The translations under genes and the position numbers were made by a program. The notes under the pieces were generated by a model, which was given only the letters and a program-made list of their open reading frames with translations, ran no database searches and was not told the origin of the DNA. Positions 9,867 to 19,790 of a DNA stretch of 64,000 bases are shown one piece after another; position 1 is the stretch's first letter; every line of letters begins with the position of its first letter. This stretch comes from Candidatus Methanoperedens sp. (GTDB lineage Archaea > Halobacteriota > Methanosarcinia > Methanosarcinales > Methanoperedenaceae), in NCBI GenBank assembly GCA_026552975.1, contig JAPMTR010000067.1, forward strand, positions 1 through 64,000, given 5' to 3'.

Positions 9867-10210
9867 TGAGAGAGGAAGGGCGGCTTCCGGCAGCAATGCT
9901 GAGGAAAGTCCCCTCACCATCTGGACCGCGGACGCACGCAAGTGCGTAGGGTGAGAATCCTGGCTCTGGAACAGAAACGATACCGCAGCACAGTAATGCG
10001 ATGAACTTGAAAGAGCGAGATCATGTGTATTGAAAATCCGCTAGGATTTTCAAAGCGGATGGAACGGCGAATCCACGCGGGTGCAAGCCGAAATAGGACA
10101 AAAAGGGCAGTCCAGACCTGTCCGAGTCCGGCGCATAGCTGAATGTCGCATAAGCGCTACAGGGGTTTTACTCCTGCGCTAAACATAAAGGGGCTTACTC
10201 TCCTCACTCA
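9867..10210 (+). ncRNA. rnpB: RNase P RNA, archaeal type
   Basis: The RNA component of RNase P, which matures tRNA 5' ends. The universally conserved core is visible: GAGGAAAGTCC near the 5' end, AACAGAAACGATACCGC, GGTGCAAGCCGAAATAGG and the 3' element ACATAAAGGGGCTTAC that closes P4. The ends pair as helix P1 (TGAGAGAGGA with TCCTCACTCA), which sets the boundaries to within a few bases. The length of about 344 bases is normal for the type A archaeal form. It is flanked by enolase and the HD-domain gene and has its own TATA box. Confidence 0.95.
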
Positions 10211-16594: not shown

Positions 16595-19060
16595 TCACAC
16601 CCCCACACCATATCTCTTCCTGTCCTTGAGTTCCTGCTTCTTACCCTCATTCCATCCAGAAACAGCCTGGATATATCCGGTAACGCGGGACAGGTGTTCG
16701 ACATTATCGCTATCGCAGTTGGGACACTCTTCCAGCAGCCCTGACGCCACATGGAAATCATCCATGCAAACTGTCATATCCTTCGTGAAAGCAAAATAGC
16801 CCACCTGCGTGTTCTTGGCAATGTTCATCGCAAACTCTTGAAGGCCATGCGGGTCTGGAGCAGCTTCGCCCAGCCAGATATCAAGGATATTGCCTCCATC
16901 CACGATCGGGAAGAAGGTCTCCTCAAGCTTGAGGCGTTGCGGGAGTGATACATCTGCGTTTGGCGGGATGTGAGTTCCATTTGTATAATATATCGGAAGG
17001 TCTCTTGTTTCCGAGATGTGCTTTAATGCCTCAGGAACATTTCCTTTAATAATTGGCTCTGCGCATTTCCTGTATTCCTTATGCAGGATATCTGATACTG
17101 CAAACCTTTGCGCCGTAGTCTCTGCAGGAGTTCTGGCAAGCGCGATCTCCATGCCGTACTTCTGGGAGAGTTCTTTTGCATAGAACTTCATCTCAAACAT
17201 TGCACGGATCGAAAGCTTTCGCGACTCTTCACTCTCATGTATCTGCTTTCCGGTATGATGCTGCACCATCTCATTGATCCCGACAACACCTATCGTATAG
17301 ACAAGCCCTTTTGTATCAACAGCTATCTGCCCGTGGGTCATGGTGATAGGATCTTTTGGCCTCTGGGTAACAAACGGCATCCGGCCGTTTCCGATCACGA
17401 TATCCATCCATTTCTTCTTCACCTTGAAAAGATCGATGCACATATCCATCATGTTCTTCAATTCCTGGAAAAGCGCCTCATCGTCCTTCTTAGCCCTGTA
17501 GGCTGCACGCGGGCAGTTAAGCGAAACTACCTGCCATGCACCCATTGAGAAATGCTTGCCTTCACGGAAATACAACTTATCGTCAAATTCTGAATCCTTA
17601 TCATGCGAAGATGAAAAATTGTAAGCACAGCACTGGTAGCAACTTATTCCTTTACCTGCTCCACGATATTCTGGAAGCTGGTTATCAAAATACGGCGTGC
17701 CATAACGCGCTGCAAGCTCAAAAGACTTGGTATAGAGTTCATGGTAGCTCAAAAGCTCAGGATGCATCCGGTTGAATTCTTCATCTTCTGTCATGAAATC
17801 AGGCTCGATGCTGATCTCAGGCTTGGGGAAATTAAAAGGTTTGCCCCAGTAATCACCTTTTAGCATCACGTTCATCATGGCTTCAAAACCAAGACGCACC
17901 TCGCGCTCGAACTCGCCGTAAGTGCGCTTTGGCGCCGCCTGTTCACCGTCCCATATCCTGCCTTTATAAACTACGGGTTTATCACGCCATAGTGAGGGTA
18001 CGCCGGGAGAGAGCTGGACAGAGGAGAAGACCAGTTGTCCCCCGCGTGCCACCATCATCTGGGTCATTTCATAAACGAACATCTGGGTGAGCTGCTCTAT
18101 TTCTTCGTAGCTCATCCCCTCAAAATAAGGGGCCATGAAAGTCAGGAAATTATAGAATCCCTGCCCGCCCGCAAAATTCGTCTGCGCACTGCCAAGAGCT
18201 TTCACAGCATGGAGTATCGCAACTTCTGCTTTTTTTGCAGGCCCTGCCACGCTTGCTTTGGTGCCGCTGCCATCAGGCATAAGGCCATAATAAAAGAAAT
18301 AACGAAGATCCCAGTCCTGGCAGAAGGCTCGCGTTCCCAGATATTCAAGATCATGGATATGGATGTCGCCGTTTAAGTGCGAGTCTGAGATCTTTGGAGG
18401 AAGCATGAGGAGATACTGTTCCTTGCTCATCTTATCGGCCTTTTTCTTATGGCTTGTTTCAGCATTCTCCTGGAGGTTGGCGTTGTCCCGCGCTTCAAAA
18501 CCTGTTCCCATATCAATTCTATAGGCATCGTATACAGGCGTTCCTACTCTTGTTGAGATATTTCGCCAGTCTGTATGCCCATGTTCGAGAAGTATAATGT
18601 TGACAAGCTCGCGTACAAGAGGGCCGGACAGGAATTTCACGTTCATATCCCTGATCCTTTTTTCGGTTTCTCTGGCTATTACTTTTGCTTCTTCAATGGT
18701 AATAGCAGGAGTACCATAGAATTGTTCGCTGAGTTTTGTTTCTTTAAGTAGCTGTTTTACGATCGTTTCCCGATCCCAGTCCATAAGGTGTCCATCCGTT
18801 GTCCTTACCTTCGGAATAACTGAAACAAGAGAACCGCCCAGTGTTTTCTGTATTGTCTGTACTTCTTTAATTTTCTGTACAAGAACTACTTTTTGATCTA
18901 TCGTCTCCTTTTTATGAACAAGAGCCTCATATAGCTCCTCTTTGTTCTCTTCTATGAGTTCTGACATCTGTACTTCTATATATTTACCCATCTTTTCTTG
19001 CACCTCTTTTGTTTGGTTATGCAGTTTTTGCAGCCGCAATTCATGAACATGTACCCTCAT
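16595..19060 (-). CDS. nrdD: Anaerobic (class III) ribonucleoside-triphosphate reductase
   Basis: An 821-residue glycyl-radical enzyme that makes deoxynucleotides without oxygen. An N-terminal coiled region (1-60) is followed by an ATP-cone (about 65-150: VIPKVRTTDGHLMDWDRETI), then the catalytic barrel with GDIHIHDLEYL, and the C-terminal RVTGYIQAVSGWNEGK with radical Gly795. The C-terminal zinc site shows TVCMDD followed by ECPNC, where other families often have two CxxC pairs. The methanogen NrdD3 branch uses a glutaredoxin-like NrdH and ferredoxin-linked reduction (reported for Methanosarcina barkeri), and nrdH lies immediately upstream. The activating enzyme NrdG is not in the window. 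Length is normal. Confidence 0.95.
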   Translation of the reverse strand: MRVHVHELRLQKLHNQTKEVQEKMGKYIEVQMSELIEENKEELYEALVHKKETIDQKVVLVQKIKEVQTIQKTLGGSLVSVIPKVRTTDGHLMDWDRETIVKQLLKETKLSEQFYGTPAITIEEAKVIARETEKRIRDMNVKFLSGPLVRELVNIILLEHGHTDWRNISTRVGTPVYDAYRIDMGTGFEARDNANLQENAETSHKKKADKMSKEQYLLMLPPKISDSHLNGDIHIHDLEYLGTRAFCQDWDLRYFFYYGLMPDGSGTKASVAGPAKKAEVAILHAVKALGSAQTNFAGGQGFYNFLTFMAPYFEGMSYEEIEQLTQMFVYEMTQMMVARGGQLVFSSVQLSPGVPSLWRDKPVVYKGRIWDGEQAAPKRTYGEFEREVRLGFEAMMNVMLKGDYWGKPFNFPKPEISIEPDFMTEDEEFNRMHPELLSYHELYTKSFELAARYGTPYFDNQLPEYRGAGKGISCYQCCAYNFSSSHDKDSEFDDKLYFREGKHFSMGAWQVVSLNCPRAAYRAKKDDEALFQELKNMMDMCIDLFKVKKKWMDIVIGNGRMPFVTQRPKDPITMTHGQIAVDTKGLVYTIGVVGINEMVQHHTGKQIHESEESRKLSIRAMFEMKFYAKELSQKYGMEIALARTPAETTAQRFAVSDILHKEYRKCAEPIIKGNVPEALKHISETRDLPIYYTNGTHIPPNADVSLPQRLKLEETFFPIVDGGNILDIWLGEAAPDPHGLQEFAMNIAKNTQVGYFAFTKDMTVCMDDFHVASGLLEECPNCDSDNVEHLSRVTGYIQAVSGWNEGKKQELKDRKRYGVGV

Positions 19061-19077
19061 AGCGATGAAACTGCACC

Positions 19078-19365
19078 CTATCTGGCATCACTGATAAGGG
19101 TCTGGATCTTCTCCTGATTTATCCTGTCCTGTGTGAATAGCTCATTATATATATGGAATTTATTTCCTATTTGCAGCACCGGCGCAGCCATGGTGAATAC
19201 ACCGTTCATGCGCAGTTCTGTCAATGCTGCCGGGGTAGCCATATCTACCTCTTTGAATTGTACTTTTGCATTCTCCATGAATTGCTTCAGTACCCTGCAA
19301 TTCGGACAGTTCTTTGTTGAATATATAATGATGCCCTGCACGCTTTTGTCTCCTTGTAAGTTCAT
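19078..19365 (-). CDS. nrdH: Glutaredoxin-like protein (NrdH type), electron donor to NrdD
   Basis: A 95-residue thioredoxin-fold protein with the redox pair Cys20-Pro-Asn-Cys23 in IIIYSTKNCPNCRVLKQFME. A cis-Pro region follows (TMAAPVLQIGN). It is 17 bases upstream of nrdD on the same strand, so it is very likely the dedicated reductant of this class III reductase, as known for methanogen NrdD3 enzymes. The ATG at 19365 is plausible; a second Met is absent until deep in the fold. A core promoter (GATATAG on the minus strand near 19400) and the TTACCAT array lie upstream. Confidence 0.9.
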   Translation of the reverse strand: MNLQGDKSVQGIIIYSTKNCPNCRVLKQFMENAKVQFKEVDMATPAALTELRMNGVFTMAAPVLQIGNKFHIYNELFTQDRINQEKIQTLISDAR

Positions 19366-19397: not shown

Positions 19398-19406
19398 AAC
19401 TATATC
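19398..19406 (-). promoter_or_regulatory. TATA box of the nrdH-nrdD operon
   Basis: GATATAGTT on the minus strand lies about 35-40 bases before the nrdH ATG. The nearest TTACCAT motif begins 23 bases further upstream, which places the motif array just behind the core promoter. Confidence 0.5.
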
Positions 19407-19424
19407 TGGTCACTAATCGTATTG

Positions 19425-19526
19425 TTTGTTACCATATATAATACTGTATTTGTTACCATATAAGACCAGACATTTTTAATAAATTACCATAATATTTACC
19501 AAATAAGATACCATATTTGTTACCAT
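19425..19526. promoter_or_regulatory. Iteron-like array of six TTACCAT motifs
   Basis: TTACCAT or a one-mismatch form starts at 19429, 19453, 19484, 19496 (TTACCAA), 19508 (ATACCAT) and 19520. The last four are spaced exactly 12 bp; the first two are 24 bp apart and share TTTGTTACCATATA. The array lies between the core promoter of nrdH-nrdD (minus strand) and that of the 73-residue gene (plus strand). This arrangement suggests cooperative binding of a regulator controlling nucleotide synthesis; the regulator is not identified. Confidence 0.7.
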
Positions 19527-19538
19527 GCGCCCCAAAAA

Positions 19539-19546
19539 TTATATAT
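19539..19546 (+). promoter_or_regulatory. TATA box of the 73-residue gene
   Basis: TTATATAT lies about 26 bases before the ATG at 19569, so transcription would begin at or next to the start codon, a leaderless mRNA. This fits the absence of a ribosome-binding site. Confidence 0.5.
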
Positions 19547-19568: not shown

Positions 19569-19790
19569 ATGACCTCCACTGAAAACCGCTATAAATACAT
19601 GTCAATTCGACAATTGCAGGACATTTCTAATGAGTTAAAAGAAGAAGCAAAAAATGACCCTTCCCGTGATGCGGAGTATCATATTGTATATAAAGCATTA
19701 GAGGACAAGATCAGGGACAGGGATAAGAGCCGGCCAAAATGCATACCAACACGTTTTGAACATGACATGGATATAATGGAAGAATTCTAG
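19569..19790 (+). CDS. Small charged protein of unknown function
   Basis: A 73-residue, highly charged, helical protein (SIRQLQDISNELKEEAKNDP ... YKALEDKIRDRDKSRPK) with no membrane segment and one cysteine. No family is recognised. It is divergent from nrdH-nrdD and shares the TTACCAT array with them, so it may be co-regulated with ribonucleotide reductase. Its predicted leaderless promoter supports expression. Confidence 0.6.
   Translation: MTSTENRYKYMSIRQLQDISNELKEEAKNDPSRDAEYHIVYKALEDKIRDRDKSRPKCIPTRFEHDMDIMEEF

Follow-up and report, generated by a model that had tools for sequence, protein, structure and literature searches.

RNR is essential for DNA synthesis. Archaeal regulators of the TrmBL1 type activate transcription from upstream of the BRE/TATA and repress it from downstream. 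In most bacteria, NrdR governs the transcription of RNR genes, but few archaea have it (PMC9110341). NrdR is a dedicated RNR regulator whose sites lie upstream of nrd operons and often at its own gene, and these sites are helix phased, a whole number of helical turns separating the boxes (PMC12051234, PMC9110341). In Methanosarcina mazei, nrdHDG rise during MetSV infection (PMC9694453), which shows regulation of the operon in this order without indicating the controller. The open-access literature yielded no paper on an archaeal nrdHD regulator, in line with the sequence-only reading of this locus, which knew of no dedicated regulator for archaeal nrd operons, and a dedicated regulator fits the evidence presented here.

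We analyzed a 64-kb stretch of DNA (the window) from a Candidatus Methanoperedens genome, in which an array of half-sites spans positions 19429 to 19526 of the + strand, upstream of nrdH (Table 1). The NrdD protein of the window is up to 91% identical to those of Candidatus Methanoperedens (ANME-2d) genomes, and nrdH is present in 55 of 60 relatives. Exact TTACCAT occurs on the + strand at 19429, 19453, 19484, and 19520, and one-mismatch sites occur at 19496 (TTACCAA) and 19508 (ATACCAT). All six sites of the sequence-only reading are thus found where it placed them, and the exact 12-bp spacing of the last four is confirmed, but two of its six TTACCAT motifs carry a mismatch. A degenerate copy, ATACTGT at 19441, sets 19429 and 19453 on a common 12-bp step. 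Half-site A lies about 64 bp from the nrdH start, the position that it has in most relatives, and the degenerate copy corresponds to the conserved site B of relatives, which reads TTAYCA at 12 bp from A. Both of the TATA boxes proposed to flank the array are plausible elements, and the TTATAA of nrdH is invariant in an alignment of six relatives.

Table 1. Features of the nrdHD locus and of the associated candidate regulator and RNA. Positions are those of the window unless a locus or contig is named.
Feature	Position	Strand	Basis
nrdD, class III ribonucleoside-triphosphate reductase	16595..19060	-	Pfam PF13597, E 3e-157
nrdH, glutaredoxin-like redoxin, first gene of the controlled operon	19078..19365	-	Pfam PF00462, E 4.5e-7
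TATA-like element of nrdH, TTATAA	19382..19387	-	sequence; ~41 bp from nearest half-site
Conserved stretch between array and nrdH TATA, ACTATATCTGG..ACTAAT	19398..19421		alignment of relatives
Half-site A, TTACCAT, flank TTTGTTACCA at 19425-19434	19429..19435	+	exact match
Degenerate half-site ATACTGT	19441..19447	+	sequence; conserved site B of relatives
Half-site TTACCAT, flank TTTGTTACCA at 19449-19458	19453..19459	+	exact match
Four half-sites, exact 12-bp steps (19484, 19496, 19508, 19520)	19484..19526	+	sequence, simulation, profile
TATA-like element of small divergent ORF, TTATATAT	19539..19546	+	sequence
Small conserved ORF, 73 aa, outside the conserved unit	19569..19790	+	homologues in relatives
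Candidate HTH protein, 192 aa in the genome of the window	G000:C121:47017-47592 (outside window)		profile match at start
RNA, ~270 nt	L212 2090-2368; genome of the window C1:92515-92767		by similarity (genome of the window)
RNA, further loci	L192, L194, L196-L198, L206, L226-L228

Allowing one mismatch, TTACCAT has 292 matches in the window against 239 expected; because such matches are not rare, single motifs mean little, and it is their clustering and phasing that stand out. Periods of 8 to 19 bp gave no run of at least three motifs on either strand of the window besides the array, and none of 20,000 simulated 190-bp stretches of local composition contained at least three motifs at 12 bp. 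Moreover, all three occurrences of the extended half-site TTTGTTAYCA in the 64 kb (19425, 19449, and 19516) lie in the array. The array is far beyond chance occurrence, and clusters of this kind are missing from random DNA, where an equal density would have spoken against the sequence-only reading.

The phasing is shared with relatives. In the DNA upstream of nrdH from 27 relatives of the same family and from the window (28 regions), same-strand TTAYCA occurs 92 times against 9.2 expected, and exact 12-bp TTAYCA pairs occur 28 times against 0.01 expected. The commonest spacing is 12 bp, followed by 44/45 and 32/33 bp, and relatives usually have two 12-bp pairs separated by about 44 bp; aligned pairs give the consensus TTTGTTATCATATTNTTTATCAAATATGATAA, in which an inverted half-site comes after a direct repeat. 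The 12-bp spacing therefore survives alignment with relatives, while the phased run itself does not: what is conserved is a half-site pair or, in other families, a palindrome, and the window's row of four is an expansion local to it. The divergent gene differs among relatives, in most of which an argS-like gene (recognized by eye from its N terminus) replaces the small ORF, and the array stays upstream of nrdHD throughout these changes. The array thus follows nrdHD and is, as predicted from these alignments, an evolutionarily conserved nrdHD operator; the regulatory array proposed between nrdHD and the small gene stands as that of nrdHD and is not owned by both genes.

In other families of the order (f2, f4, and f5), the region upstream of nrdH has the same half-sites, arranged as pairs, as palindromes, or in both ways, and in a Methanosarcina-type genus (g18) they form the palindrome TTTGTTATCAGATCTGATAACAAA and close variants. 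The palindromic form is TTAYCA-N4-TGRTAA, and in the genetically tractable Methanosarcina the operator is a near-perfect palindrome of 24 bp. The nrdH transcripts of family f5 would carry a leader of about 270 to 300 nt from TATA to start codon with conserved stretches (L308, L310, L311, and L313-L316), which could be an RNA-level control element.

NrdR was rejected as the regulator, as TIGR00244 is absent from the genome of the window and reaches the family cut-off in 0 of 30 relatives, in a search that was positive in 9 of 14 control genomes; the earlier view that the array is not an NrdR site agrees with this. Moreover, paired 16-bp NrdR boxes were not found at the locus, where the unit is either the 12-bp TTAYCA direct repeat or the palindrome. 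An exact triple pattern proved too strict, with no match genome-wide, and a pair pattern with one mismatch was too noisy (111 and 85 matches versus 58 and 40 for the reversed control), so that it was replaced by a sequence profile of the pair, run on the genome of the window and 30 relatives. In this genome-wide scan, which the sequence-only reading had recommended, the nrd array is the best match in its own genome, with 19484-19512 at the top. Besides nrdH, profile matches recur at the start of an HTH gene, at the promoter of an RNA, and upstream of a small ORF; low-scoring matches in coding sequence (e.g., L217-L219, L224, and L229) were left out. Such a distribution, with sites at the RNR operon, at one regulator-like gene, and at few other places, is that of a dedicated RNR regulator, here as sequence sites only. 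A small ORF with the pattern KSxEERxxLLxxGFxxKxIEKMY (L199, L200, and L201) has a promoter in which a TTAYCA triple runs into the BRE/TATA, and one genome (G004; L193, around 1990-2015) has a second nrdH-type promoter with TTAYCA sites away from nrdH, with a DUF2551 gene about 300 bp off.

The HTH gene encodes a protein family of about 190 aa that is normally single copy. Among 200 genomes of the class, 131 gave a match, and all the matches listed fall in this order (Methanosarcinales). Nearly every genome sampled from family f5, the family of the Methanosarcina-type genomes, has the protein. A segment, SIS..RELK..GYD.HRLILTGYLRAL, is strongly conserved, and no relative above cut-off was found in Pfam, NCBIfam, or the PDB. 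The protein differs from NrdR in that a Zn-ribbon and an ATP-cone were not found in it. It shows a weak likeness to ArsR-type winged helices (HTH_5, PF01022) in 4 of 15 family members, with a best E value of 0.0065 and no match above the Pfam gathering score among the 15, and differs from that type by a further region of about 120 aa without a known relative. The structure predicted from three sequences is poor (mean pLDDT, 52), the alignment being too shallow, and the HTH assignment rests on the conserved segment, the weak ArsR-type match, and this poor model.

Several observations link this protein to the operator. A motif pair or triple lies immediately 5' of its own ATG, between TATA and ATG, and is conserved across families; in Methanosarcina-type genomes the pair is not visible directly before the gene. 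At three loci (L065, L066, and L085) the HTH gene and nrdHD point away from each other on either side of operator-like sites; the first two are one lineage (proteins 99% identical), and the third is a second, related lineage. Of 52 genomes that encode the protein, 48 have a strict nrdH operator, versus 2 of 9 genomes that lack the protein (Fisher p 2.4e-5, kinship ignored). In family f3 both are missing, as no HTH protein was found among the f3 genomes listed and no motif in the nrdH promoters of five f3 genomes. In G093, a 99% complete genome of genus g18, the HTH gene has an internal deletion that leaves short remnants of both ends (L337, G093:C28:19500-22600), with both flanks on one contig, and the palindromic nrdH operator is missing. 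Family f3 and G093 would thus be two separate, informative joint losses of protein and operator. The genome sequences show a conserved operator that is associated with nrdH, with the HTH gene, and with the presence or absence of the protein, and these findings point to the HTH protein as the best candidate for the regulator that reads the TTAYCA sites.

Our results lead us to propose, with considerable confidence, that the array is the nrdHD operator and that this dedicated HTH protein binds it at TTAYCA half-sites. The protein would recognize the core TTAYCA within the extended consensus TTTGTTAYCA, unlike NrdR with its paired 16-bp palindromic boxes. In Methanoperedens the half-sites would be read as direct repeats at 12 bp, about one helical turn, so that neighboring subunits would sit nearly on one DNA face and could bind cooperatively. 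The same protein would bind beside its own start codon, probably in autorepression. At nrdHD, the sites begin about 40 bp upstream of the TATA. Archaeal activators bind at such a distance more typically than steric repressors do, and activation from there is therefore proposed and slightly favored over repression. Since the sites lie upstream of the TATA at nrdH and between TATA and ATG at the HTH gene, they suggest position-dependent action, with activation of nrdHD combined with autorepression. This would work much as in TrmBL1-type regulators, from which the system differs in its motif and in a candidate protein without a TrmB family match. Binding, direction of control, and cooperativity are what we infer from this arrangement.

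It is also conceivable, though at somewhat less than even chance, that the HTH protein is a repressor of nrdHD and that the array nucleates a promoter-blocking polymer or loop, NrdR-like in effect. Multiple phased half-sites would suit cooperative spreading, and a repressor would fit the sites ahead of its own ATG, but the nearest conserved site lies about 40 bp upstream of the TATA in Methanoperedens and the sites lie farther upstream still in Methanosarcina-type genomes.

That the array is the nrdHD operator but is read by another regulator, with the HTH gene merely another target, appears unlikely. The motif does occur at other gene classes, and three genomes have an operator with no HTH gene detected: G011 and G026, both fragmented MAGs, and G150, where the operator is degenerate; in such genomes the missing protein may possibly reflect MAG gaps. 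Against another regulator stand the divergent linkage of the HTH gene to nrdHD, the start-proximal sites kept at that gene across families, and the joint absence in f3 and G093.

Control of the small divergent ORF by the array, alone or on an equal footing with nrdHD, is very improbable. In the genome of the window the array does lie between two promoters, with its last site near the BRE/TATA of the small ORF, whose TATA-to-ATG spacing would fit a leaderless transcript. The ORF is the divergent neighbor of nrdHD in this genome only, however; its homologues, found in 34 of 60 relatives, are located elsewhere, the five upstream regions checked contain neither motif nor motif pair, and the array stays with nrdH. 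The small ORF was therefore rejected as owner of the array, and any control of it may be limited to this one species. Finally, a functionless chance repeat or AT-rich slippage product, to which the common one-mismatch motifs might point, can be practically dismissed, as the simulations never yield the phasing and the exact 12-bp pairs are kept across the genus.

The dedicated HTH regulator that we prefer may control more than nrdHD. An unannotated RNA of about 270 nt has a promoter with three TTAYCA half-sites at 12-bp steps into the BRE/TATA, from which we take the RNA to be probably transcribed. DNA similarity detects it in 28 of 60 relatives, nine sequences show compensatory change at 26 of 71 predicted pairs, and a search of Rfam gave no matching family. 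Taken jointly, we think it reasonably probable that Methanosarcinales, without NrdR, control class III RNR through a dedicated regulator from an undescribed HTH family, that the same protein controls this conserved, structured RNA, and that the operator switched between palindromes and 12-bp arrays in the evolution of the order. If true, the existence of such a regulator in archaea, dedicated to RNR and paired with a defined operator, would reveal how methanogens and anaerobic methane oxidizers control their dNTP supply, and it would give an unannotated HTH family a function and a link to an undescribed RNA. Two other observations concern RNAs and similar loci: the window holds an archaeal RNase P RNA (9868-10209, + strand; RF00373, 181.7 bits), and two loci (L221 and L222) have a layout like the RNA locus, between a methyltransferase gene and tmk.
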